From Zoogloea sp. (GTDB taxonomy: Bacteria > Pseudomonadota > Gammaproteobacteria > Burkholderiales > Rhodocyclaceae), in NCBI RefSeq assembly GCF_023150065.1, contig NZ_JAKLLN010000005.1, positions 124,001 through 188,000 of the forward strand: DNA of 64,000 bases. The letters are read 5' to 3'. Numbering within the stretch: position 1 is the stretch's first letter; each line of letters begins with the position of its first letter. This document shows positions 22,328-50,901 of the stretch, piece by piece. Both the position numbers and the translations under genes were made by a program. Under the pieces are notes generated by a model. It searched no databases. It worked only from the letters and a program-made list of their open reading frames with translations, and was not told the origin of the DNA.

Positions 22328-22466
22328 GAAATTCCTCCAGAAATGAAAAGCAGCTTAGCCTGCACTGCCTGAGAGTAGCGGAGCACCCGAGAAGTTTCAA
22401 CCGCGTGGCCAGCGCGGCATTTGGCCTGCGCCGGGCTCGTGCTAGAATTCGCGCCCTCGGGAAGAG

Positions 22467-22500
22467 TGGCAGAGTGGTCGATTGCACCGGTCTTGAAAAC
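22467..22500 (+). repeat. 34-bp direct repeat shared with the intact tRNA-Ser (22623-22656)
   Basis: The bases from tRNA position 8 to the end of the core are identical to 22623-22656, offset by 156 bases. Over the full 5' halves only the last two acceptor bases (AG versus CT) differ. Confidence 0.9.
22492..22500 (+). repeat. attL core (anticodon-loop crossover site)
   Basis: CTTGAAAAC, identical to 31900-31908. Flanking bases differ on both sides (T before and TTACG after here; A before and CGGCG after at attR), so the shared core is only nine bases. Confidence 0.8.
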
Positions 22501-22615
22501 TTACGTTCGTACGGTACGCGATAGGCGAAAATAGCAGTAAAAACAACGTGTTAGCGCGAATATCCTGGCGGCTGTTTTGTTGCCGTTTAGCAGATTCTTA
22601 GCACCTCAAAGTTTT
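22501..22615. other. left-end arm of the element with TTAGC repeats
   Basis: A 115-base non-coding stretch between the attL core and the element tRNA. It holds three TTAGC copies (22551, 22587, 22598), matching five TTAGC/GCTAA copies near attR; these are plausible integrase arm-binding sites. It must also contain whatever promoter drives the element tRNA, but no clear -35/-10 pair is seen. Confidence 0.45.
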
Positions 22616-22703
22616 GGAAGCTTGGCAGAGTGGTCGATTGCACCGGTCTTGAAAACCGGCAACCCGCAAGGGTTCCAGGGTTCGAATCCCTGAGCTTCCG
22701 CCA
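22616..22703 (+). tRNA. tRNA-Ser(UGA), carried by the integrative element
   Basis: A complete 88-base class II tRNA with encoded CCA. Acceptor GGAAGCT pairs with AGCTTCC; anticodon stem CCGGT/ACCGG encloses loop CTTGAAA with anticodon TGA; the variable arm is AACCCGCAAGGGTT; T arm CAGGG-TTCGAAT-CCCTG. It sits 115 bases inside the left boundary of the element that splits the host tRNA-Ser(UGA), and is followed at once by its own terminator. It contains an intact CTTGAAAAC, so it could itself be an integrase target. Confidence 0.97.
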
Positions 22704-22707
22704 AACG

Positions 22708-22738
22708 AAAGCCCCGAGCCGGAAGGTTTCGGGGCTTT
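22708..22738 (+). terminator. terminator of the element-borne tRNA-Ser
   Basis: Hairpin AAAGCCCCGA/TCGGGGCTTT with an 11-base loop followed by further Ts, beginning five bases after the tRNA CCA. Confidence 0.85.
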
Positions 22739-22867
22739 TCTTTGTCTCATTCCTCAGTTCCGTAGCTTGATGTTTTTGTGCATGGAGTGCCTTGTTTGCG
22801 CATGAAGCTATTGTTTTGTGCGTAATGGTGATGTATCGTGCAAGGACACTACCTTGTGGAGTACAAC

Positions 22868-23536
22868 ATGGCATTCAGAGCAGACGAAGCGGAACGGATC
22901 GGAAACGAACGAGTTCTCAACTATCTCGTCCCCAAGCCGAAGGATGCGACTGAGTCTCAGCGAGCACGCGCCAAAGAGGCTGTCTTGGACATCCTGTACG
23001 AGCTCGGCCCTGCGATTGACACATACCCATCATGGCATCCGCTGGTCAGTAACCACGAAAGTCGTTACCCGGAAACGCTGCCAGGCAGCAAGAATGGGTA
23101 TGAAGGTCTCGATCACACTAGGTGTTTCGTGAATGGCTTTATCACCTGTCCCTATAACGGAGGGCAAAAAGTCATCGACTCCGTTGAGGCGCTACCCCTC
23201 CACCACGCAGCCACGATTACAGCCGAACGGCTGGACGTCCCGCTGTACCACCCGTTGGCAACCCCCATCCTAGTCAAGTGCAAATGGCATGAGCCCCTCT
23301 TGAGGGACGGAACAATCCCACTGGCAGTTGCGTTGCCGCTACTCCTTGAGAGCGAGCTTCCTTGCTGGAGGTGGTCTGATGTGGCTGAAACCTGGGAGTC
23401 GATGAGGGAGTATTTTCTTGGCTCGCCCTACGGGAGTCGGTCGTCACTGTTTGTGAACCAAGAGACGGGGCAAGCGATCAAGAAGATCTGGAACGCTTTG
23501 ATTCACACAGGGATGTTCGGTCCGATCAAGGTCTGA
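22868..23536 (+). CDS. hypothetical protein in the integrative element
   Basis: A 222-residue protein that I do not recognise. ATG 22868 follows a TGTGGAG ribosome site; a GTG at 22838 would add ten residues. The N-terminal third is charged (ADEAERIGNERVLNYLVPKP). The middle has several Cys/His (DHTRCFVNGFITCPYNGG, then LHHAA). No signal peptide or membrane helix is apparent. Transcribed away from the tRNA; possibly a cargo or host-interaction gene. Confidence 0.65.
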   Translation: MAFRADEAERIGNERVLNYLVPKPKDATESQRARAKEAVLDILYELGPAIDTYPSWHPLVSNHESRYPETLPGSKNGYEGLDHTRCFVNGFITCPYNGGQKVIDSVEALPLHHAATITAERLDVPLYHPLATPILVKCKWHEPLLRDGTIPLAVALPLLLESELPCWRWSDVAETWESMREYFLGSPYGSRSSLFVNQETGQAIKKIWNALIHTGMFGPIKV

Positions 23537-23634
23537 CGCCGGTGGCACGTGGGCCGCTACACGCCCCGCAACGGTGCCGCCAGTACCCTAGCGGCAACCC
23601 TGTGGTGATCGCGGCCTGTGCCGGCCCCTAGTGC

Positions 23635-23880
23635 CTAACGTTGGCGCTGGTACTCTTCTTCTGTTTCCCGAACCAAGTCAGCTGCCGGGGTGCCTAGGGC
23701 TTGTCCAAGCCCGATCAGCGTCGTGATGGTCGGCTGCCTGATGCCACGCTCAAGGCGGGAGACAAACGTCCTATCCACATCCGCACGGTGGGCGAGTTCT
23801 TCCTGAGAGATATTCTTCTCCGAGCGATGCCGTCGTAGAACCTCTCCAAAGATCAGCCCAATGTCCCCTGCGGTTTTCAT
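23635..23880 (-). CDS. XRE-family regulator resembling restriction-modification C proteins
   Basis: An 81-residue single-domain helix-turn-helix protein. The recognition region DRTFVSRLERGIRQPTITTL closely follows the pattern of C proteins such as C.Esp1396I and C.AhdI (DRTYIS-IERN-R-LTI), and its size (about 75-85) fits them. ATG 23880 gives MKTAGDIGLIFGEV. It is divergent from the PD-(D/E)XK-like gene at 23942. The 61-base gap between them holds a C-box-like repeat. No methyltransferase gene is nearby. General XRE repressor function is the fallback reading. Confidence 0.85.
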   Translation of the reverse strand: MKTAGDIGLIFGEVLRRHRSEKNISQEELAHRADVDRTFVSRLERGIRQPTITTLIGLGQALGTPAADLVRETEEEYQRQR

Positions 23881-23903
23881 GGGGTTGATCGTGGTTTTCG
23901 TGA

Positions 23904-23928
23904 GGCCTATAGTCCACGGCCTATAGGC
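23904..23928. promoter_or_regulatory. C-box-like operator between the XRE regulator and the nuclease-like gene
   Basis: Two copies of GGCCTATAG start at 23904 and 23918, 14 bases apart, the second within palindrome GCCTATAGGC. The centre TATAGTCCACGG resembles the TATAGTCCGTG core of several control-protein boxes. The position in a 61-base divergent promoter gap supports an operator; the binding protein is inferred to be the adjacent XRE product. Confidence 0.6.
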
Positions 23929-23941
23929 ACGTCTCCGGACT

Positions 23942-24412
23942 ATGAAACAGGAAACCCAAGCTTCAAGCGCCACTGGCGGGCATGCTTACCGCAACTCGAT
24001 GACGGGGAACGCTGGGCTGAACTATGCGGCTTGGCAGCTCGCACGCCGGGGGTGGCATGTGCTGCCGACGATCCGTAATGCACGTGGATCAGACTTGATA
24101 GTGACGGACGCGGACGAGACGGTGTTCTTTGGCGTTCAGTCGAAGGCGTTGAGCAAGCGCAATGCCGTCCCGCTGGGTAAGTCTCTCGAGACTCTTCGTT
24201 CCGCATGGTGGATCATCACGATCAATACCCATTCCGACCATCCGACGTGTTTTGTGATGACGCTCCAGGATGTTCGGAGGCTTGCTTCGCAGGATGCGAA
24301 TGGCGGGGCGTTCTGGCTAAATCCGCCCGCCTATGATTGTGATGAGTTTCGGGAGGCATGGGAGCGCCTCGGCGCCCTAGTCACGACAACGGGTGCCAGT
24401 GGCACCCGTTGA
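23942..24412 (+). CDS. PD-(D/E)XK nuclease-like protein of unknown role
   Basis: A 156-residue protein with a likely PD-(D/E)XK-type core: an N-terminal helix starting GNAGLNYAAWQLARRGW (residues 22-38), then RNARGSDLIV with Asp51, then VFFGVQSKAL with Gln66 and Lys68, giving D-x14-Q-x-K. The rest includes a hydrophobic strand (WWIITIN) and ends with a DEFREAWERLG helix. This order is typical of small nuclease-fold proteins of unknown role found in many genomes. It is divergent from the C-protein-like regulator and may be under its control. Catalytic activity is not proven by sequence. Confidence 0.65.
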   Translation: MKQETQASSATGGHAYRNSMTGNAGLNYAAWQLARRGWHVLPTIRNARGSDLIVTDADETVFFGVQSKALSKRNAVPLGKSLETLRSAWWIITINTHSDHPTCFVMTLQDVRRLASQDANGGAFWLNPPAYDCDEFREAWERLGALVTTTGASGTR

Positions 24413-24467
24413 AGGCAGCATCGGGGGTGTTAGGAAGGTCACCCCCCCCGCTACTGGTCCCGTTTGA

Positions 24468-24692
24468 TTAACGTGCGACGGTTTCCTGTGGCACGGCACA
24501 CACACAAGGCGGTTCGGGTGGCGCCTCCGCAGCGGCAGCTACCAAGCGCGTCTGATGCTCCACTGCGATGCGCTCCCATTCATCCAAGTCATAGATGATC
24601 GGCGGCCAGTTACCCACGGTGCGCGTCGTGGAGCGGACTTGCTCCAGTTGAGCCACGCGCTTCAGTGTCGCCTGACTGACCCTTGCCCGCAT
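24468..24692 (-). CDS. small hypothetical protein
   Basis: A 74-residue protein starting at ATG 24692, whose codon overlaps the upstream stop as TGATG, indicating translational coupling. The N-terminal half could form a short HTH-like helix pair (SQATLKRVAQLEQVRS) and the C-terminal part is Ala/Pro-rich. Last gene of a run of overlapping minus-strand genes from 26659. Function unknown. Confidence 0.55.
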   Translation of the reverse strand: MRARVSQATLKRVAQLEQVRSTTRTVGNWPPIIYDLDEWERIAVEHQTRLVAAAAEAPPEPPCVCAVPQETVAR

Positions 24693-25150
24693 CAATGCAC
24701 CTGCGCTGACTCAATTGGCTGGTAGTGGCGCCCCAGGGACAGCAGTAGCTGAGCCGCTTGCACGCGCGCGGTGGAATCGTCGCTGTCACGGATCACCTGA
24801 AAGCAGGTCTGCGCTATCAGCGCGCAGTCCGCCTCAAGTTCGCCGTCGTTGAGGACGGCTCCATTGTTGCGGAACGTCCGTTCCTGGCTTGCAGTAAGGG
24901 GGCGCAGCACGGCTTGAGGAAAGAGATGCGGAGCAGGGTTGTCGGCATCCCATTGTGCGATCCACTTGTCCGCCACCCTGCGAGCTTCCGCCATGCTCTG
25001 GCGCAGGGTGCCTCGATTGACCACGCAGGCATGCGGCCCGAAGCGCACATGCACCGCCACTGAGCCCTTGGGTGCGGGCAAGACCTTCATGCGTCGCTCG
25101 CGCGCCTGTTGGCGTACCGCCTCGATGGTGAACGGCTTAATCATGCTCAT
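24692..25150 (-). CDS. hypothetical protein
   Basis: A 152-residue, mostly helical, basic-then-acidic protein without a recognised domain. The start is MSMIKPF (25150) or MIKPF (25144). It overlaps the stop of the upstream gene at 25137 by 8-14 bases and the next gene by one base. The segment MAEARRVADKWIAQWDADNPAP is the most distinctive. Function unknown; part of the element's five-gene overlapping block. Confidence 0.6.
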   Translation of the reverse strand: MSMIKPFTIEAVRQQARERRMKVLPAPKGSVAVHVRFGPHACVVNRGTLRQSMAEARRVADKWIAQWDADNPAPHLFPQAVLRPLTASQERTFRNNGAVLNDGELEADCALIAQTCFQVIRDSDDSTARVQAAQLLLSLGRHYQPIESAQVH

Positions 25151-25481
25151 CCTCCGGTAGGGATGCCCCCGCGAGAAACTGAACCTTCACGCTGGCGTTG
25201 AACATCACTTCCCAGGCGGCAGCCAATGAGACACCTCGCTCCCGGTACTTCCTGTAGATGCTGATGTTGAGCTTGAAATCCTCTTCATTGGTCCAACCAT
25301 GCCCGTTCAATCGCTGTACATGAGCGAACTTGGCGAGCAGTTGTTCCAGTGTCAGTTCTGGGTAGTGGTCTGGAATCAAAGCTGGAGAGGGGAAGGCATC
25401 GGGGAACTTCACCCTTGGTCCGCCATAGACCAGAACCATAGACCAAGGGTGATGTTCCAGTTCGGTGAACGGCTTAGCCAT
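25137..25481 (-). CDS. hypothetical protein
   Basis: A 114-residue protein from ATG 25481, which overlaps the DUF5681-like gene by eight bases. It has a conserved-looking aromatic segment (HHPWSMVLVYGG) and a basic KLNISIYRKYRERG helix. No domain recognised, no signal peptide. Function unknown. Confidence 0.6.
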   Translation of the reverse strand: MAKPFTELEHHPWSMVLVYGGPRVKFPDAFPSPALIPDHYPELTLEQLLAKFAHVQRLNGHGWTNEEDFKLNISIYRKYRERGVSLAAAWEVMFNASVKVQFLAGASLPEDEHD

Positions 25482-25902
25482 GACGCCCCTCCAGTACCGC
25501 GATGCGCGACTCCAGTTCATCGACCTGCCGCACCGCGCCAAGGGCGCCGATGGACTCAATGATCTGCTTGCCCACGTCGGGCGCTACCTCACCGTCGGCG
25601 ATGGCTTGCAGCACCGCCTCCACCTGTTCAGCGAGCGGCGCCTTGGCGTCGAACGAGAAATTCACCTTCTCACCCTGTGCCCGCAGGGTCGGGGCAATCC
25701 GTGCGAGCACGAGCGACGCGGCTTGCATGTCACCTTCCAGCGCAGCGTCAATGACCACGCGTGCGATCTCGTTGGCTTCGACCAGCAGCGCCTGTGAGAC
25801 CTTCGAGCGCTTATCAACGATGCCCTTCGGACGACCTGCGGGGTTGGGAGAACGCATCCCCTTGGTCCAAGGAGCGCTCTTCTTTTCGGTTGAAGTGTCC
25901 AT
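25474..25902 (-). CDS. DUF5681-like protein
   Basis: A 142-residue protein whose N-terminus (PWTKGMRSPNPAGRPKGIVDK, residues 11-31) matches the DUF5681 pattern often found next to phage terminase genes and in genomic islands. The rest is helical, ending in a short coiled coil (VRQVDELESRIAVLEGR). No large terminase is present here. It may be a DNA-binding or small-terminase-like factor, but this is inference. Confidence 0.65.
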   Translation of the reverse strand: MDTSTEKKSAPWTKGMRSPNPAGRPKGIVDKRSKVSQALLVEANEIARVVIDAALEGDMQAASLVLARIAPTLRAQGEKVNFSFDAKAPLAEQVEAVLQAIADGEVAPDVGKQIIESIGALGAVRQVDELESRIAVLEGRHG

Positions 25903-25915
25903 TTCGTGCTCCTGA

Positions 25916-26659
25916 TTAGATCAGTTTTACAGCAGCGCTCCGGGCTGCCATACCGAGCTTTGCCCGCGCTTGGTTGTCGCCCTTGCGCATTTCCTGCACC
26001 TTCCGCCAGTCAGCGCCCACGGCCTTGGTCACCCCGGTGAGGAACAGAGGGGCGTTGTTTTCGATGTGGTCGATGCAGACCCGCGCCGCAGTGAGGCGCT
26101 TGACGGCGAGAGGGTTCTGCGACTCGTGGAAGCCGCGCAGCAGCTCTTGGTGGATATCGGCGCCCAGCCCCGACAGGTAGTACGGGGCACCCAGCACCGC
26201 AGTCGCCGTCAGGGTGTCTCCGGACTTGATGGCGTCCCGGATGAAAGCGATGCGTTTGCCAAGGTCCGGCATCGCATTGACGTGGCGGCGCACCTCTTCG
26301 TTGAGGGTGCCGATCCCGGCTTGCTGCTGAACGGGGTTCAACAGTTCAGCCTCGATCGAGCGGGCGATCGTGTTCAGGTTCTTCAGCACCGCTTCGAACT
26401 TGGGCAGAACCGAGGCTTGCTTCTTTTCCGCGAAGGCTGCGACGTTGAGGGTCTGCGCGGCCTCCGTCCAAGCGGGGTTGCGCGCCGCAGCTTCGCGGGC
26501 CTCGTGGATCTCACGCAGCGCCTCGTAGGCTTCGCTGAACGTGGTAATGGCCTGTGCGGTGTTGGAAAGGGTGGTGTCATCCATGATCCCGGCCTCTTCG
26601 AGCTTACCCTTGAGGTAATCCGGATGGAGGCTGGGGGTGACTTTGCCGCTGATGTCCAT
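25916..26659 (-). CDS. hypothetical helical protein
   Basis: A 247-residue, predominantly alpha-helical protein with no recognised domain, signal or membrane segment. It has a long helical N-terminal half (TTFSEAYEALREIHEAREAAA) and a basic C-terminus (RKVQEMRKGDNQARAKLG) that could bind nucleic acid. ATG 26659 follows an AGGAGAAG ribosome site. First gene of the overlapping minus-strand block ending at 24468. Role unknown. Confidence 0.65.
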   Translation of the reverse strand: MDISGKVTPSLHPDYLKGKLEEAGIMDDTTLSNTAQAITTFSEAYEALREIHEAREAAARNPAWTEAAQTLNVAAFAEKKQASVLPKFEAVLKNLNTIARSIEAELLNPVQQQAGIGTLNEEVRRHVNAMPDLGKRIAFIRDAIKSGDTLTATAVLGAPYYLSGLGADIHQELLRGFHESQNPLAVKRLTAARVCIDHIENNAPLFLTGVTKAVGADWRKVQEMRKGDNQARAKLGMAARSAAVKLI

Positions 26660-26899
26660 GATCTTCTCCTGCGTTTATGCTATTTGGCTAAAAATACGCT
26701 TGCATGGTACGGCACCCACAGGAAAAGCACTTTGATAATTGCTGAAAAAACAATGCTCTAGCAGCAATTTTTTAGCTGCGAACAGCGTTTAACAGAAACG
26801 GCGGTCCTTTATTTTCGACGCTTCCACAAAGTCGTTGCCGATCTTCCGTGATGCGTCCTAGCGTTATGCCATCGACAACAGACGCAAGGAGAAGCGACC
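26660..26899. other. AT-rich divergent intergenic region of the element
   Basis: This 240-base gap separates divergent genes and should hold both promoters. It is clearly AT-rich, with GGCTAAAAATACG and GCAGCAATTTTTTAGCTGC (an imperfect inverted repeat at about 26762-26780). An AGGAGAAG site precedes the plus-strand gene. No specific promoter is assigned. Confidence 0.4.
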
Positions 26900-27304
26900 A
26901 TGGAAGCCAAGACCTACACGAAGCGCGAGAACGCCCGCCGGGCTGGTGTTGCAGCAGGGGTGCCCGCGGAGCTTGTCGGCATCACCGTGCATAAAGACGG
27001 CGACGAGGTGAGGTTCGGCTGGGAAACGCTGGAAGCGCCGGCGGCCCCCGAGATGACCACAGCGACGCCCGAGGTGGTCGCACCGAAGGTGTCGCGCGTC
27101 GAACAGAACGGAGTCAGGCGACCGAAGGAGGGCGGACTGTGCGCTGCCGTCTGGGCATGGCTGGATGCACACCCCGGCGCAACCGTGAAGGAGGCCAAGG
27201 CGGCAGCACCTGACCACGGTTGGAACGTGAATAATGTCGCCTGCGAGTTCTATGCCTGGCGCAAGTTCAATGGGCTCAGTGGCAGGCAAGCTGCTGCGGG
27301 GTAA
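26900..27304 (+). CDS. hypothetical protein with possible winged-helix C-terminus
   Basis: A 134-residue protein starting at ATG 26900 after an AAGGAGAAGCG ribosome site. A basic N-terminus (MEAKTYTKRENARRAG) is followed by an acidic Pro/Ala linker. The C-terminal 55 residues (GLCAAVWAWLDAHPGATVKEA onward) look like a small helix-turn-helix used by mobile-element proteins. Function unknown; it reads toward the candidate origin. Confidence 0.6.
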   Translation: MEAKTYTKRENARRAGVAAGVPAELVGITVHKDGDEVRFGWETLEAPAAPEMTTATPEVVAPKVSRVEQNGVRRPKEGGLCAAVWAWLDAHPGATVKEAKAAAPDHGWNVNNVACEFYAWRKFNGLSGRQAAAG

Positions 27305-27668
27305 CTACTGGGGAGCCCGTTGCGCATACCCGTGCGGGGCGCGTGGGGCCGGCTGGGGCCGCTTTCACTACCGGCTCGCCCCCACCATACCAGCGGCCCC
27401 CGTGCGGGGCCTGCAGCGGCAATTTTTAACCACAGTGTGGGTCATGAGGTAGAGCTGAAGGGCAACGCACCTTTCGTGAATGGGCAACCCATTTTGCATG
27501 AATTCAAAGGGCCGGCAAGCTGCGTTAAAAAGGGTGTGTTGCCCTATAGGAAAAAACGCAGCAACGCACCCCTTGGGGGGTGCTGCTTGCTCCTGCGGTT
27601 CGGGGGTGCGTTAAAGCACCGTAACGCACCCCCAACGCCCCCGAGGGGCGTTGCAACGCACCTTTGGC
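27305..27668. other. candidate replication origin: AACGCACC iteron-like repeats
   Basis: A 364-base non-coding stretch beside the primase-helicase gene. AACGCACC occurs at 27464, 27563, 27623 and 27655, and in reverse (GGTGCGTT) at 27605, with a one-mismatch reverse copy at 27533. A perfect 12-bp inverted repeat GGGGGTGCGTTA/TAACGCACCCCC lies at 27602-27633 and a 9-bp one at 27633-27653. TTAACCACA at 27426 is one base from the DnaA box consensus. Together with the adjacent replication gene this suggests an origin; some hairpins could also serve as a terminator. Confidence 0.5.
27602..27653. repeat. nested perfect inverted repeats in the candidate origin
   Basis: Arms 27602-27613 and 27622-27633 are perfect over 12 bp with an eight-base spacer. 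CAACGCCCC/GGGGCGTTG at 27633-27653 is perfect over 9 bp with a three-base loop. The two hairpins share base 27633. Confidence 0.75.
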
Positions 27669-29747
27669 CTAGCCATGCTCCGCAGTGCAGGTATCGACAG
27701 GTCGCAGCCACTTGGACCCCGATGGACCTCCCTGTTCTTCGATCAATTGCCCCCTGTCTTTCAGGCGAGCGAGGGAATCGCGCAGGCTCTTCTGTGTCAT
27801 GTCGTGTTCTGCCCTCACTGCGGCCCGCATACCTTCTAGGCCGCGTCCAGTTGGGCGCTGGCCCTCGCTAGTAAGCTGCCTTATCCATTTATTGACAAAC
27901 GCGTCGTCCGCCGCTGCCAGAACGGCCGCGTCGGGCGCCTGCTTCCGCTCGTGTGGTGCTCTCCAGGGAGCTACTGCCAGCGAAGTAATCGGGTCGCCGT
28001 CCTCGTCATTTCCAAGGTTCAACTTGTCCATGGTGAATGGACACTCGATACCGGACTCACCGTCCTTGACCTTCCGCATGGTGAAGCGGGCGTCGAGCGG
28101 GCCATCCTCTTCATCGTCCTTGTCCTTGGCCACCTTCTTCCAAACATGAATGACAAAGTCGAGCGCCCCGTGAAGGCTGCTATGGCCTCGCAAGCCTGCA
28201 CCCTCGCTCTTGCCGCTGTGGTGAACAACCAGCACGGTGCAGTCAAGCCGTCGCTGCAGCTCTTGGAAGATTGCGATCATCTCTCCCATGCCTTCGCTGC
28301 TGTTTTCGTCAAAGCTGCCACCTGCCTGAGCCAGCGTGTCAATGCACAGGACTCCCCCGATGATCTTTGACTTCAGCGTCATTACCAGCTTGTCGCGATC
28401 TGCCTGATCCCTCAAGTTTAGGGGCTCCATCAGGAAGGAAATTCCCGTGGATGTGGCTCCAAATTTCCCATAGCCCAGCCTCCACGCAGCAACTCGCCTC
28501 GGTATGCCGCCCCGACCTTCAAATGGGACATAGACGACTGGGGCTGCACGTACGCGCTGACCGAACCAGGGCGCCCCGTTGGCAATGTGTGCCAGCAGGT
28601 CAAGTGCGAGGAATGACTTGAACGTCCCCGAGGCACCGAACAGTGCTCCAACCCCGCCAACAGGGATGAAGCCCTTCACAAGCCAGCGCAGGGGTGGGAG
28701 CTTGCCAAGGTCGTGGTCAGTGAGGAGCTGGAAGACGTTGGTTGCGCGCTTGGCTTCCCAGGTTGCTATCAGAGCATCGGCGATTTGCTTGCCGTGCGCG
28801 GCCGCTCCTGCGTCTCGCGTGACGTGCCCCCGCTGCACCGCCAAGGTACGATTCAGGTACGTGTCGTTCTTCGTCGCTTTCTCCCGCTTACCCAGCGCCG
28901 ACATACGGAACAACCGCCTGCACTGCTCGTTCGAGGGGGAATGGAATGCAAGGGTTTGCATGAGGGAAGCGTCTGCTTCCGATTGGGACGAGAACCCAAG
29001 TTCTTCCCATTCACCCCGCCATAGCCGTTGGAACTTCTCGCCACTTTCCCACGCCCTTTGCATTACTCCCTCATCGGTGTCCGTGGGCAGGACTTCAACA
29101 AGCTCCGCGCCGCAAGTGGTTTCTGGCATCTGGGAAATCATGTTTTGAAGGCGCTCTTGCTGGGCAACAATGGGCTTGTCCTTCACCACGTTGCCGGTGC
29201 AGATGATGTACCGCTCTTGCGAATAGACCTCCACACCCTCCCGGCGTCGCCCCTTGCCGATCTTGCCCTCAACCCACACGTGCAACCCCTTCCCGCTACG
29301 GGAATGCTCGGTGTAGCTGTCGAACTCCTCAACAATCTTGTGGAAGCGCTGAATGTGCTCTTGCGGCGTCGTCTCCTTTACGTCCATGTCGATGCAGGTA
29401 AAGGGATCATCTTCGGTGAGCACGTAGCCAATGTGGAGGTTTCGTGCTTCGGCTGCTCGGCACACCGAATCGAAGTCCGCCCATGTGGTTGGATCAGTGG
29501 AGCTAGCTGCTCGACCGTCAATGGTCAGAGGCATTTTGTCCGCACCAGCAAGCACCCACTGGCGGCGGTCGCGAAGTGCTGCGGGCAGGTTCGCCCACTG
29601 CGCTGGCAGGGGGCCGGCTGGGGCCGTTTGCTGGGGGTGGCCAAGGGGGTTGCCAGGGTGGCCATGCTGCGGGGCCTGTAGCGCTGGCTGCAAATGATCA
29701 AACGTGCCGACCTTCGCGGCAGGGGGTACGCTGTTGGTGCTATCCAT
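27669..29747 (-). CDS. primase-polymerase / RecA-fold helicase replication protein
   Basis: A 692-residue replication protein. The N-terminal 60-260 region is primase-polymerase-like (NrS-1 type): acidic D120/D122 in TCIDMDVKE and His156 in SGKGLHVWVEG. The C-terminal half is a RepA/RecA-like hexameric helicase: Walker A GASGTFKS (371-378), Walker B GGVLCIDT (about 465-471), then VLVVHHSGKSEGAGLRGHSS as sensor region. ATG 29747 has an AAGGAAT ribosome site; the upstream extension is poorly protein-like. Such proteins prime and unwind plasmid-like or satellite-phage DNA, so the element probably replicates after excision. The candidate origin is at its 3' end. Confidence 0.85.
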   Translation of the reverse strand: MDSTNSVPPAAKVGTFDHLQPALQAPQHGHPGNPLGHPQQTAPAGPLPAQWANLPAALRDRRQWVLAGADKMPLTIDGRAASSTDPTTWADFDSVCRAAEARNLHIGYVLTEDDPFTCIDMDVKETTPQEHIQRFHKIVEEFDSYTEHSRSGKGLHVWVEGKIGKGRRREGVEVYSQERYIICTGNVVKDKPIVAQQERLQNMISQMPETTCGAELVEVLPTDTDEGVMQRAWESGEKFQRLWRGEWEELGFSSQSEADASLMQTLAFHSPSNEQCRRLFRMSALGKREKATKNDTYLNRTLAVQRGHVTRDAGAAAHGKQIADALIATWEAKRATNVFQLLTDHDLGKLPPLRWLVKGFIPVGGVGALFGASGTFKSFLALDLLAHIANGAPWFGQRVRAAPVVYVPFEGRGGIPRRVAAWRLGYGKFGATSTGISFLMEPLNLRDQADRDKLVMTLKSKIIGGVLCIDTLAQAGGSFDENSSEGMGEMIAIFQELQRRLDCTVLVVHHSGKSEGAGLRGHSSLHGALDFVIHVWKKVAKDKDDEEDGPLDARFTMRKVKDGESGIECPFTMDKLNLGNDEDGDPITSLAVAPWRAPHERKQAPDAAVLAAADDAFVNKWIRQLTSEGQRPTGRGLEGMRAAVRAEHDMTQKSLRDSLARLKDRGQLIEEQGGPSGSKWLRPVDTCTAEHG

Positions 29748-29884
29748 GTGAAATTCCTTTGGCGGCAGGGCGTAGGCGAACCCCTGCCGCTTTTTCTTGA
29801 CTGGCTTGTTTTGGGCTAGGCGACGGTGCTGTTCCGCGGGCGCAAGCGGCGGCGCTGCTCGGGTTGCGAATAGGCGACCGCCAG

Positions 29885-30193
29885 TTATGAGGTTTGCTGT
29901 TCGGCGGGAAGCCACGGCGGGCGGGTCAGTGCAACATGGTCGGGGCGTTGGCTGGTGCTGGTGCGTGCGCCGGAGGCGAGCCAGAAAAGAACGTCGCGTT
30001 CGGAGTAATAGACGCGGCGGCAGCCGTTAGGCTGGAAGTAGCGGGGACCAGTGCCCGCTAGACGCTTCTGCTCAAGCGTGTTGGGCTGGAAGTGCAGAAT
30101 CTCCGCAGCTTCGCGGCTGCTCAGGGGGCGGTTCTTCGGGGTGTAGTTGAACAGCTCGCAAAGCTGCTCGAAGGACAGGCTTTCGGTTTGCAC
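29885..30193 (-). CDS. AlpA/MerR-type helix-turn-helix protein (possible excisionase)
   Basis: A 102-residue protein with an HTH_17-type winged helix: LSSREAAEILHFQPNTLEQKRLAGTG (residues 24-49) followed by the wing VYYSERDVLFWLASG. Small proteins like this between integrase and replication genes are typical excisionase or AlpA regulators. ATG 30193 has weak upstream purines. The tail is unstructured. Confidence 0.78.
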   Translation of the reverse strand: MQTESLSFEQLCELFNYTPKNRPLSSREAAEILHFQPNTLEQKRLAGTGPRYFQPNGCRRVYYSERDVLFWLASGARTSTSQRPDHVALTRPPWLPAEQQTS

Positions 30194-30438
30194 AGGCAGT
30201 GCCTCTCAGCAAGCCCACCGACGTGCAGATGCAAAAAGGGCAGTCGGTAGGCGAACCGCATCGCGTTACCGATGCCAGTTGCCCGCCGTCTGCCCATGCA
30301 GCACTTTTCGTTGATCGCGTCCCGACGCATTGCGCGAAGTGACGGAAAGGCGAGGTGTGTTGTCTGCTACTGTACTAAGATTGTGCAGCCTTTGCAACGT
30401 GACGTATTGTTTTGACATTTTTGGGGCAAGCCCCTAAG
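30194..30438. other. intergenic region between integrase and AlpA-like genes
   Basis: 245 bases without a gene. It should hold the promoter of the AlpA-like gene; a TTGTGC...TGTACTAAG-like AT-rich section lies near 30360-30420. No firm promoter or terminator is called. Confidence 0.35.
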
Positions 30439-31740
30439 TCAAGCACGGAGCGGCACCACGTTCTCAGCCTTGGAGATTGCCTCCGCGAGCGTGCCCTGAT
30501 GCTCGATCCAATCAGCTACCCGCTGCACTTCGGGGAGTAGATATTGCAGCTTCGAGGTCTTCAGGTAGTGCTTCTCCGTGACGCCGTGAGGCTTATGGTT
30601 CAGCAGTTGCTTGACCTTGGAGAGATCGACGCCGCACTCGGCATATCCAATGTCAGCGAAGGTGCGACGCAGGTCATGCGGCGACAAGTGCGTGCCTGCG
30701 GTCTCGCTGACCTTCTTCATGGTGTCGCGCGGGTCTTTGATGTGGCCACTCTTGCCCCATGATGGGAAGACATGCTGGTTGCCCTCTACCCTCTGGCGGG
30801 TCTTGAGTAGTTCAATCGCCTGTGCAGATAACGGCAGCCAGACAGGGCGGCGATTCTTGGGGTCAGGTATGTGCCACCAGCCTTCATCAAGATTGACCCG
30901 ATCCCATGTCAGTGCCGCTGCTTCTTCTTTGCGCGCACCGGTCAGCATGAGGAATATCACGAGGTCGATGCTTGACCACGTATCACGGTTGTAGGCGTTG
31001 GCGCGAGCCTGCGTGAGCATGTGCCACACCGCGCCAACTTTCGGAAGCGGGATGCTCGAATCGCGCGGGTCTAGCTCTGCCCAATCGTCTTTCAGCACTG
31101 CGACAGGGTTGTGCAGGACTAGCGGCATGCCATCCTGCTTCTTGTACTGCCGACCGGCATAGTTGATGAGGGCGCGCAATACGCTGAACGCCTGATTCGC
31201 TTGACCTGGCGAACCGCCCTCACGGTTGCCGCGAAGCCCCTTCGTTAGCATTTCGCGGTAGCGCTTGCGGCAGTCGTCCTCGGTGATGCTAGTGATGGGC
31301 TTGTGTTCCCACGCCTTGAAGGTTGTGGTCACATGCCGCTCAATCTCGCTCTTGCTGCTGTCCTTCAGCTTACCCGGTCGCCCCATGTAAGCGTCAGCAA
31401 CCTGCCGCAATGTCACTTTGGCTGCCTCGTCCGCTTTCTTCGCGTCGCGCGGGTCGATACCGTCACGCATGGCTTGCAGGATGTGGCGCGCGCCTTTCGT
31501 GATGATTGTGCCGCTGCTGTCGGTCAGTCCGTTACGCGCCAGTTCTTCGGTGTATAGCCCATAAGGACCAATCGTGATGCACACCGCCTTGCCCCTGACG
31601 CGCCCCTGCGCAATGAACACGCGCTTGCCCGCGGCGGTGACCCGTAATCCGAACCCCTTCAGCGAGTCGTCCCAGTGAGTCTCGTAGCCCTCGGGGGGCG
31701 GCTGCACCTTGTTGATGAAAGTCTTCGTTAGCTTCGGCAT
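30439..31740 (-). CDS. int: P4-type tyrosine recombinase / integrase
   Basis: A 433-residue site-specific recombinase. Residues 1-90 are the DUF4102 arm-binding domain (DDSLKGFGLRVTAAGKRVFI). A core-binding SAM-like domain follows at about 105-205. The catalytic domain keeps all residues: Arg270 (LTGARKEEAAAL), His355-x-x-Arg358 (PHDLRRTF), His382 (LNHKPHG) and Tyr392 (TEKHYLK). It lies at the right end of the element, 159 bases from attR, with its start facing the attachment site. The attachment cores place its crossover in a tRNA anticodon loop. Confidence 0.96.
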   Translation of the reverse strand: MPKLTKTFINKVQPPPEGYETHWDDSLKGFGLRVTAAGKRVFIAQGRVRGKAVCITIGPYGLYTEELARNGLTDSSGTIITKGARHILQAMRDGIDPRDAKKADEAAKVTLRQVADAYMGRPGKLKDSSKSEIERHVTTTFKAWEHKPITSITEDDCRKRYREMLTKGLRGNREGGSPGQANQAFSVLRALINYAGRQYKKQDGMPLVLHNPVAVLKDDWAELDPRDSSIPLPKVGAVWHMLTQARANAYNRDTWSSIDLVIFLMLTGARKEEAAALTWDRVNLDEGWWHIPDPKNRRPVWLPLSAQAIELLKTRQRVEGNQHVFPSWGKSGHIKDPRDTMKKVSETAGTHLSPHDLRRTFADIGYAECGVDLSKVKQLLNHKPHGVTEKHYLKTSKLQYLLPEVQRVADWIEHQGTLAEAISKAENVVPLRA

Positions 31741-31899
31741 AAACCTTCTCCTAGACGCTGTTTTAGCGTATGTTTAGCAACCTAGGCTAAGTTATGACAA
31801 GCTACACAAAACATGCAACGACGATAAGTTGTTGTTTTGAAAAGGTGCGGAAGGCTAAGTAAAGCAGCGGAAAGCTAGTTAAAAGCAGCCTCCGTAAAA
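31741..31899. other. right-end arm of the element with TTAGC/GCTAA repeats
   Basis: Between the integrase start and attR. TTAGC at 31763 and 31774 and GCTAA at 31786 and 31854 (plus GCTAG near 31874) match the motif found beside attL. Spacing and location suit integrase arm sites; the integrase promoter must also be here. Confidence 0.45.
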
Positions 31900-31908
31900 C
31901 TTGAAAAC
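31900..31908 (+). repeat. attR core
   Basis: CTTGAAAAC, identical to the attL core at 22492-22500, directly followed by the remainder of the host tRNA-Ser gene. Confidence 0.8.
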
Positions 31909-31955
31909 CGGCGATGGGAAACCATCCGTGAGTTCGAATCTCACCTCTTCCGCCA
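31900..31955 (+). pseudogene. 3' half of the disrupted tRNA-Ser(UGA) gene (attR side)
   Basis: From the anticodon loop this reads ACCGG, a variable arm (GATGGGAAACCATC), T arm TGAG-TTCGAAT-CTCA, acceptor CTCTTCC, discriminator G and CCA. The acceptor complements GGAAGAG at 22460. Upstream of 31900 no tRNA 5' half is supplied by the element, so this half has no partner at this end. Confidence 0.92.
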
Positions 31956-44685: not shown

Positions 44686-45176
44686 CTTGCTTTCCTTCGT
44701 TTGGATTGAACGAAGTGCGGCATGACGACGGGGGCGCAGAAGCGGAAATACCTGGAAACGGACCGGCGGCCAGACGAGGCCGGGCAGGCGCTGACGCGGT
44801 CGGGAAGGGTTCCGGGAACAGCGGGGAACGGATCGGACGCAGCGGAGCGGGCAAGCCCATCGGTCGGCTCTACCCACACCCCGGGGCCAATACCACACCA
44901 CTCGTCACAGGCCGGTCTTCTGGCTCGCCTTCATCCTCTTCTGCCAACCTTCCCGGGTGCGGACACCCAGTGGCGTGGAGCAGATTCGTCAGGCTTACAG
45001 CAGCGGGGGCTGCGCCGGAATGGTCGGGGAGAGCATGCTCACCGAGGTCACCGGACTTCCCGTTTCACCTTGCCCGCGGAAGCGGGCTCGGCACCTTTGA
45101 CGGGGCGGAGTCTAACCGCTCGCACCGTTCCGGTGCAAGCATCCTGCATGGCATCGGGGGCCTGGGGCCCAGGGGG
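44686..45176 (-). promoter_or_regulatory. long leader of the cobalamin operon
   Basis: A 491-base non-coding leader between the DUF2149 gene and cbiM that contains the cobalamin riboswitch. About 220 bases between riboswitch and cbiM start carry no gene and may hold an expression platform or terminator. An imperfect inverted GCACCGGAACGGTGC lies at about 45123-45137, between the DUF2149 stop and the riboswitch. Confidence 0.5.
44905..45098 (-). promoter_or_regulatory. cobalamin riboswitch controlling cbiM and the cob genes
   Basis: On the minus strand the AdoCbl aptamer elements appear in order: GGTGCC, GGTGAAACGGGAAGTCCGGTG, TCCGGCGCAGCCCCCGCTGCTGTAA, the B12 box GCCACTGGG (44966-44974), GGGAAGG, GAGGATGAAGG and GAGCCAGAAGACCGGCC. 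Spacing and order match the canonical class I aptamer, so it should shut off the operon when B12 is abundant. Reading direction is toward cbiM at 44685. Confidence 0.95.
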
Positions 45177-50384: not shown

Positions 50385-50901
50385 TGCGCCTCCGCGTGCC
50401 ATTGGGCTGGCCAGGGGGCGAGGGGGACGATACGAAGCCGCTGGGCGGGCGCGGGGCGTGAGGATGTGCGCGGGAAGGCCGACGTTTCGCTCGCCATTCC
50501 CACACCCCGGGGCACAGCTGAACCAGTGTTGTCGGGCCGGTCTTCTGGCTCGCCTTCGTGCGACCCGCTCCGGCCTTCCCGGGCCGAAGGCCCAGTGGCG
50601 TGTGTGGAGGCGTCGTCAGGCTTACAGCAGCGGGGACTGCGCCGGAATGCCCTGCGAGCGAAAGGCCCGCCGGGGTCACCGGACTTCCCGTTTCACCTTG
50701 CCCGCAGACGCGGGGTCGGCACCCGAAACGCCGCGGAGTCTAACCGCCGCCGCTGTCGCGCTGCAAGCCCGGGGACTGTTGCCGTGATACGGGTTCCCAA
50801 GCGCGGATAGTTCATTACAATAACGTCATTGTTCAGCGTGCCTCCCGCCCCCGTGTCCCGTTTTCGATGCGTGGGTTTTCGTTTGCCCCTTCCTCGCCTT
50901 G
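50385..50901 (-). promoter_or_regulatory. leader and promoter region of the cobN operon
   Basis: A 517-base gap with the second cobalamin riboswitch (50534-50726), a 130-base spacer to cobN and, at about 50730-50900, the divergent promoter zone toward the 50902 gene. CAATAACGTCATTG at about 50817-50830 is a near-palindrome and may be an operator or part of a promoter. Confidence 0.45.
50534..50726 (-). promoter_or_regulatory. cobalamin riboswitch controlling the CobN-like operon
   Basis: Minus-strand AdoCbl aptamer with GGGTGCC, GGTGAAACGGGAAGTCCGGTG, TCCGGCGCAGTCCCCGCTGCTGTAA, B12 box GCCACTGGG (50591-50599), GGGAAGGCCGG and GAGCCAGAAGACCGGCC. It is strongly similar to the riboswitch at 44905-45098, implying duplication with the gene cluster. 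It would repress the CobN-like operon at high cobalamin. Confidence 0.95.

Follow-up and report, generated by a model that had tools for sequence, protein, structure and literature searches.

A small integrative element splits the tRNA-Ser(UGA) gene of a Zoogloea host and carries a complete foreign tRNA-Ser(UGA)

In a 64,000-nt stretch of the genome of Zoogloea sp. (contig NZ_JAKLLN010000005.1, positions 124,001 to 188,000 of the forward strand; hereafter the window), we identified a small integrative element that disrupts the host gene for tRNA-Ser(UGA). The element extends from core to core over 22492-31899 (9408 bp), interrupts the gene at a 9-bp core in the anticodon loop, and carries a complete foreign tRNA-Ser(UGA) near its left end. 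In our assessment, the best explanation as a whole, and a highly probable one on the evidence of the sequences compared here, is that the host gene is split, that the foreign tRNA serves as its replacement, that the host promoter is read through into this tRNA, and that the arrangement confers a host-range advantage.

In the proposed mechanism, a tyrosine integrase would recombine a core of 7-10 bp with the part of the host tRNA-Ser(UGA) gene that encodes the anticodon loop, and the integration would destroy that gene. The host would survive by means of the complete foreign tRNA-Ser(UGA) of the element. This tRNA lies at the element end that comes to stand downstream of the host tRNA promoter, and transcription from this promoter would most likely cross the stranded 5' half and continue into the foreign tRNA, the ends of which would then be processed. 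Because a whole tRNA is brought in, it would not need to match the acceptor and anticodon stems of the host, so that hosts with a different tRNA-Ser could be entered. Expression from the host promoter, essentiality and excision are the steps that we infer.

Disruption of the host tRNA-Ser(UGA) gene

The features of the two junctions, in the order of their positions, are as follows.

22421..22448, + strand: sigma-70-like promoter of the host tRNA-Ser gene (TTGGCC, 16 nt, TAGAAT)
22460..22500, + strand: 5' half of the host tRNA-Ser(UGA), with the core at its 3' end, the same as in the intact gene of the congener loci L083 and L071
22492..22500, + strand: left attachment core CTTGAAAAC, with the anticodon loop CTTGAAA
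22501..22615, + strand: element leader with the box AGTAAAAACAACGTGTTAGC, a candidate integrase arm site; AAAAACAA lies at +47 from the core
22616..22703, + strand: complete foreign tRNA-Ser(UGA) with CCA encoded, a perfect tRNA-Ser(tga) by ARAGORN
22702..22744, + strand: terminator-like hairpin 3' of the element tRNA
31900..31908, + strand: right attachment core CTTGAAAAC
31900..31955, + strand: 3' half of the host tRNA-Ser(UGA), with CCA

The acceptor sequence GGAAGAG at 22460 has its complement CTCTTCC at 31945, and joining of the flanks at 22500 and 31908 gave an intact 88-nt tRNA that ARAGORN called a perfect tRNA-Ser(tga), confirming the split at the anticodon-loop core that a preliminary description of this DNA had proposed. 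The sequence CTTGAAAAC occurs in three copies on the + strand of the window, at 22492, at 22648 (within the element tRNA) and at 31900. When each junction was analyzed alone by ARAGORN, no tRNA was found at the left or the right junction, in agreement with the earlier claim that the missing half is rebuilt at neither. A classical tRNA-gene island according to the Islander rule was accordingly rejected, as the element carries no piece of a tRNA gene by which the target would be restored.

To place the two tRNAs, we compared the locus among genomes of the same genus. The 5'-half pattern of tRNA-Ser(UGA) was matched in 21 of the 23 genomes searched (G016 and G022 were unmatched and not read), and each of the 19 readable congeners, besides the window genome and G004, had one site with one intact tRNA-Ser(UGA). 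The left flank was common to the window and 18 of the 19, and both flanks matched in L083 and L071, where the intact tRNA was letter-identical to the rejoined window halves; such empty sites, which had been suggested earlier as a comparison, rule out a chance match or a native double tRNA. The tRNA at 22616 was absent in all 19 readable congeners without the element, and with a query composed of the leader and the tRNA, the match to these genomes was confined to the tRNA and did not exceed 85%. Thus, the split gene belongs to the host, and the leader and the complete tRNA belong to the element.

The window genome is a draft assembly of 5.25 Mb in 251 contigs, with a completeness of 97.85%. A search with RF00005 gave 54 tRNA matches in it, and the anticodon was read in every one, the serine set consisting of CGA, GCT, GGA and the TGA of the element. 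A tolerant pattern search of the same assembly gave no further candidate for tRNA-Ser(UGA). By the decoding rules, UCA is read by the UGA anticodon only, and UCA codons were rare but used, accounting for 3 of the 154 serine codons in seven open reading frames (ORFs) outside the element that were taken as host genes. The element tRNA is likely to be the sole copy of tRNA-Ser(UGA) in the host, which very probably lives on a borrowed tRNA.

Survey of related elements

To define the family, elements with a complete extra tRNA were designated type 2, and those that supply a 3' half, by which the host tRNA is rebuilt, type 1. A scan for integrase relatives gave 27 loci in species genomes and 3 in viral contigs, to which genus, family and class searches added more. 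As a result, 14 type-2 elements were bounded on both sides on one DNA stretch, namely those of the window, G004, L088, L090, L092, L094, L096, L103, L192, L196, L197, L199, L200 and L215, and a fifteenth spans two contigs (L089/L201). The bounded elements are 8.0-15.8 kb in length with integrase cores of 7-10 bp, and in 14 of 14, ARAGORN called tRNA-Ser(tga) for the element tRNA as well as for the host halves after rejoining. The host labels, taken from record titles where present, cover alpha-, beta- and gammaproteobacteria, including Rhizobium, Cupriavidus, Denitromonas, Dechloromonas and Pelomonas, along with metagenome-assembled genomes (MAGs) labelled Thiohalomonas and Pseudomonadales. 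Type-1 elements at tRNA-Ser(UGA) were found at L093, L100, L101, L112, L115 and L194, and at L097, L104, L108, L113 and L114, there were relatives that restore tRNA-Lys, -Arg or -Phe. The first survey also contained fourteen loci that were set aside, no far end having been found in the DNA then examined; L095, L109 and L089 were later assigned to type 2, and the remaining eleven, together with L198 and L216, stand outside the type counts.

Of 395 genomes sampled from the family, 10 contained the integrase at E <= 1e-80, namely 8 with type 2, one with type 1 (G133) and one, G155, that was assigned to neither type. An integrase-independent search for the core followed by a second 5' half gave 8 and 6 of the 395 genomes, 14 in total, recovering all 8 type-2 genomes and adding G095, G393, G097, G263, G086 and G066. 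The last has a different leader and represents a separate lineage; in G393, G097 and G086, only the left end was present, reaching the contig end in G393 and G097, and the stretch of G086 that was examined contained no 3' half and no integrase. In a class sample, the integrase was found in 3 of 369 genomes: the window genome, G718 (type 2) and G611. Among plasmids, a single match of 32% was obtained at E 1e-40, and 54 records of a phage collection matched, each with less than 60% identity.

Pattern scans of viral contigs, which returned 22 and 17 contigs, many of them chance 7-mers when inspected by eye, provided further observations. A long-class left end, as defined below, was seen in L161/L214 (viral contig G778), where the upstream neighbour is not a tRNA half and is perhaps the right end of another element; L161 is apparently a tandem integration at the same core behind another element. 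In L181 (viral contig G779, reverse strand, about 1270-1530), two tandem stranded tRNA-Ser 5' halves, each followed by the same short spacer, precede a complete tRNA-Ser(UGA), and no 3' half was found in the contig; the arrangement resembles what would be expected if elements of one type had inserted one after another, each into its predecessor's tRNA. The contigs L152, L153, L156 and L164 form a first group having CTTGAAA with a complete tRNA-Ser(UGA) about 100 nt further on, and L154, L157, L160, L166, L169, L170 and L172 form a second such group. In those checked of both groups, there was a nearby integrase (phrog_1) not matched by that of the window, and a second-group left end was also present behind a host 5' half in L242 (G066). 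Both groups are possibly tRNA-dependent phages of Proteobacteria. In L238 (G393:C270, about 490-625), the host 5' half has the acceptor AAAAGTG and is perhaps already decaying.

Leader and expression of the element tRNA

The element tRNA has the same orientation as the host gene and is separated from the 9-bp left core by 115 nt. Of its 88 positions, 69 are the same in the rejoined host tRNA. The 5' halves of the two differ at 2 of 41 bases, both in the acceptor, and the 3' halves differ in the acceptor, the variable arm and the T stem, so that the complete tRNA is placed and distinguished from that of the host just as the preliminary description had it. Its further claim that the tRNA has its own terminator is upheld in part: a hairpin follows the tRNA and is also flagged by a consensus scan, but the count of 2 sites in the region is not clearly above that of shuffled sequences (mean 0.9, SD 0.9).

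With respect to promoters, a single promoter-like site was found in 22350-22800, upstream of the host half (shuffles: mean 0.1, SD 0.4), and the leader of the window's element contains no sigma-70-like site. The distance between the 7-nt loop and the element tRNA divides the 14 bounded elements into a short class with 9-20 nt (7 of 14) and a long class with 95-124 nt (the other 7), to which the window's element belongs. The short class must be transcribed from upstream, because 9-20 nt leaves no room for a promoter, and its transcription would most simply start at the host tRNA promoter and run through the stranded 5' half. The single sigma-70-like site before the host half suggests the same read-through in the window, less strictly.

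The leader also carries the AAAAACAA box, often followed by TTAGC, which precedes the tRNA in all seven long-class elements at +46 to +47 (+36 in L215). In 5 of the 7 short-class elements, the box is found after the tRNA at +106 to +117, and a string search for it in the other two, L103 and L200, found none; in the type-1 element L194, it lies after the 3' half at about +58. The box around AAAAACAA, a similar box being present in other elements, is probably an integrase arm site. The core-to-box distances were 36, 46-47, 58, 106 and 116-117 bp, and the difference within a group corresponds to about one helical turn.

Alternatively, with a clearly lower probability than read-through, transcription of the element tRNA may start at a separate promoter within the leader. 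The leaders of the long class extend over 95-124 nt, and the tRNA of phage Fionnbharth is reported to have its own promoter (PMC10865867). However, the lack of a sigma-70-like site in the window's leader and the spacing of only 9-20 nt in the short class argue against such a promoter.

Compatibility of tRNA halves and host range

To evaluate the advantage of carrying a whole tRNA, we paired the host 5' half with the 3' half of the element tRNA, as if the host gene were to be rebuilt from them. In 15 of 17 such hypothetical cases, the acceptor and anticodon stems together contained one or more mispairs, and in 12 they contained two or more. Similarly, when 5' and 3' halves of different hosts were combined, a mispair occurred in 256 of 272 ordered pairings. 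Closely related type-2 integrases were present in hosts with different tRNA-Ser (96% identity between the window and L088; almost identical in L090 and L192), and the closest type-1 integrase cluster was confined to Acinetobacter. Taken together, the compatibility and integrase data support, without proving, a freedom of host range. One element could move between orders, because its 3' half need not pair with the 5' half of the new host. We hold it to be an even matter whether the whole tRNA behind the host tRNA promoter is a host-range device by which the element moves between orders, with the repeated, permanent exchange of an essential host tRNA for a foreign one that outlives the element as a side effect.

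Remnants and dependence of the host

In G095, the element has shrunk to 2.36 kb without an integrase match, and both host halves are still joinable. The integrase match in G263 is limited to residues 15-265. The most decayed example concerns G267 (L245, G267:C58, about 720-890), in which a decayed host 5' half and a mutated core are followed by the foreign tRNA as the single tRNA-Ser(UGA) match; in the 19 kb downstream, there was no 3' half and no relative of the window element proteins or of the 39 integrases. The tRNA thus appears to outlive the element, as expected if it is needed.

The preliminary description had seen in this dependence a built-in stabilization system, and stabilization (addiction) would then be the selected function, the tRNA being kept because the host cannot lose the element. 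The retention of the tRNA in remnants without the integrase or most of the element would fit, as would the finding that no other complete tRNA-Ser(UGA) copies were found in the searched genomes. We nevertheless consider such a function unlikely, and the claim was not sustained. Dependence alone does not distinguish this design, because the host needs the tRNA end of classical elements of this integrase family just as much, which carry no whole tRNA, and because precise excision would restore the host gene, leaving clean loss unpunished. Furthermore, the element body has been lost in the remnants anyway, indicating that dependence does not stabilize the rest of the element. Stabilization is a possible consequence rather than a demonstrated function.

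A far less probable explanation is that the tRNA resists anticodon nucleases or other tRNA-cutting defences, as phage tRNAs are reported to do, with replacement of the split gene being secondary. Defence-like cargo is present in several elements, but the anticodon loop is CTTGAAA in both the host and the element tRNA in 17 of 17 cases, which rules out escape through the anticodon loop, and the isotype of the element tRNA equals that of the split gene in the 17 cases. That the 115-nt leader and the tRNA are native to the locus or the remnant of an older separate element, with only the rest being mobile, is hardly credible: the host genus has a tRNA-Ser at the locus and tandem insertion at the core seems to occur (L161), but the 22616 tRNA is missing from all 19 readable congeners that lack the element, their matches to the leader-tRNA query cover the tRNA alone, and the leader and tRNA recur as a left-end unit elsewhere, e.g., in L088, L192 and L197, which rules out an older separate element as the source.

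Several points weigh against replacement by read-through with host-range freedom, which we prefer to these alternatives. The 95-124 nt of the long-leader class, the window included, could house an unrecognised promoter. The list of 54 tRNAs is also without tRNA-Trp and tRNA-Ile (ARAGORN calls), meaning that the tRNA set of the draft is incomplete, presumably owing to its gaps. The earlier premise that the host has no other tRNA-Ser(UGA) consequently stands as far as the count and the pattern search go and is weakened by this incomplete list; a second copy overlooked in the draft is possible, but unlikely because a single site was present in all 19 readable congeners. Among the type-2 elements, no third tRNA-Ser(UGA) site was found in the 13 of the 14 genomes that were pattern-searched (G718 was outside the search), by a pattern that missed the host halves of L096 and L199 and is hence not exhaustive. 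Some host names are MAG labels. As the elements were collected by likeness to one integrase, the ratio of type 1 to type 2 is biased, and the sample is small. As for compatibility, the chimera would pair in 2 of the 17 cases (G004 and L200), three further cases have one mispair, which need not be disabling, the element tRNA of L215 itself scores one mispair, and no anticodon stem with 5 of 5 pairs was found for the Acinetobacter type-1 elements. Finally, the remnants were located via the tRNA, so that remnants without a tRNA would be invisible to the search.

Origin of the carried tRNA

The element tRNA of the window is identical to that of the G004 element, the integrase of which is about 60% identical, and also to the rejoined host tRNA of G304, which belongs to another genus. 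In the same manner, the tRNA of the G095 remnant equals the rejoined host tRNA of G153. An exact search for the window tRNA gave 4 of 365 family genomes, namely the two elements, the fossil in G267, and G136, in which the copy may be native. A GGTGGGT-type element tRNA is identical in L088, L192 and L089/L201, the hosts of which differ in their tRNA-Ser genes. From these identities, it follows that the tRNAs travel with the elements and that at least some of them have matching genes on the chromosomes of other bacteria.

On an integrase tree of 39 rows, 13 of them unassigned, the type label needs 5 changes, of which at least 3 are forced by well-supported branches; a single origin of the whole-tRNA design was therefore not supported. 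The scatter on the tree and the presence of two layouts suggest more than one acquisition of the complete tRNA.

Relation to known systems

The preliminary description was correct that the element differs from most elements that target tRNA genes, and the principle is already in print. TRNA-dependent lysogeny has been genetically proven in actinobacteriophages (Guerrero-Bustamante and Hatfull 2024, PMC10865867), the authors of which describe the evolutionary relation to reconstructing systems as not clear, mention a simplified choice of attB as one possibility, and ask how common tRNA-dependent lysogeny is outside Actinobacteria. The present elements resemble those phages in having a tyrosine integrase, a short core in a host tRNA gene (8-17 bp in the phages, 7-10 bp here), no reconstruction and an element tRNA of the same isotype, and, like them, apparently have several origins and relatives with similar integrases that reconstruct. 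The element in the window shares the arm-binding tyrosine integrase, the short core and the absence of rebuilding, and is not a recognizable phage. In contrast, the targets there are tRNA-Lys, -Ile2 and -Leu for phages of Actinobacteria, whereas tRNA-Ser(UGA) of Proteobacteria is used here; the Fionnbharth tRNA with its own promoter overlaps a protein gene, whereas the tRNA here lies directly inside the left junction; and temperate phages with genetic proof stand against elements of 8-16 kb without recognised virion genes, and remnants, that are known from sequence alone.

A proteobacterial precedent is provided by Lo5R7ANS-like prophages, which replace tRNA-Leu(UAG) in Sinorhizobium meliloti (PMC11476347). 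There too, a host tRNA is inactivated and the replacement is closer to the tRNA of other species; that case concerns prophages and a different tRNA, and a family of small elements, the core position and promoter use are not described in the accessible sections of that paper. The Islander islands (PMC4383910) likewise use a tyrosine integrase with, in many, a crossover in the anticodon loop, but they carry a tRNA fragment that restores the gene, which the elements here do not. The closest comparison is with the type-1 relatives, which share the integrase family and the tRNA-Ser(UGA) core but carry the 3' half only, the host tRNA being rebuilt at the left junction, whereas type 2 carries a whole tRNA.

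In the literature as far as it was accessible, no such elements were described in Proteobacteria apart from the Sinorhizobium prophage case. Already known, therefore, are the principle of tRNA-dependent integration (PMC10865867) and that prophage precedent (PMC11476347); new are the kind of element, which is small and has no recognised virion genes, the use of tRNA-Ser(UGA) as target, the placement of the tRNA behind the promoter of the host gene, the data on compatibility, and the remnants. With these findings, tRNA-dependent integration reaches beyond actinobacterial phages to small elements that form a family in Proteobacteria, and the question raised by the 2024 authors, how the whole-tRNA design relates to the reconstructing design and why it may be advantageous, receives a testable answer. 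They also point to a route by which essential tRNA genes could be replaced by horizontal transfer, and island finders built on one intact tRNA and one fragment could miss or misplace such elements.

Gene content of the element

The remaining features of the element in the window are listed below.

22838..24412: variable cargo slot, with an ORF at 22838-23536 (+ strand), an XRE-type regulator at 23635-23973 (- strand) and an ORF at 23942-24412 (+ strand)
24468..26659, - strand: small ORFs, among them one for a DUF5681 protein (25474-25902) and one (25916-26659) for a protein modelled as all-helical
26900..27304, + strand: conserved element protein with no assigned function
27669..29915, - strand: primase-helicase (AAA_25, PHROG DNA primase)
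29885..30193, - strand: small protein with no family match, a tentative candidate excisionase
30439..31740, - strand: tyrosine integrase (Arm-DNA-bind_3 and Phage_integrase)

The integrase gene starts 159 bp from the right core. The conserved protein at 26900..27304 was present in all 14 bounded elements, and the DUF5681 protein in 11 of the 14, the window being included in both counts. The XRE-type protein matched the model of the TrbA regulator far below the cut-off of that model. No virion or lysis families were found among 10 window ORFs compared with Pfam and PHROGs and 10 compared with NCBIfam (the 75-aa ORF at 24468 was outside the scan), and no relaxase or conjugation genes exceeded the cut-off in these databases among the window ORFs scanned. 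In a check for phage-satellite features, the primase and the DUF5681 protein were seen in the window, with no terminase or capsid match among the scanned ORFs; the sampled ORFs of related elements likewise gave no match to a virion, terminase or relaxase family.

In 7 of the 14 elements, we scanned the first slot downstream of the tRNA, and defence-like matches were obtained in 6, the window's slot giving none. The matches were PDC-M48B (G004), DNA methyltransferases (L092 and L196), PDC-S45 (L197), PRTase-CE with an ORC-CDC6-like protein (L199) and a partial match to a TIR effector (L192). Outside the element, two cobalamin riboswitches were observed in the window at 44893-45113 and 50518-50741 (- strand).

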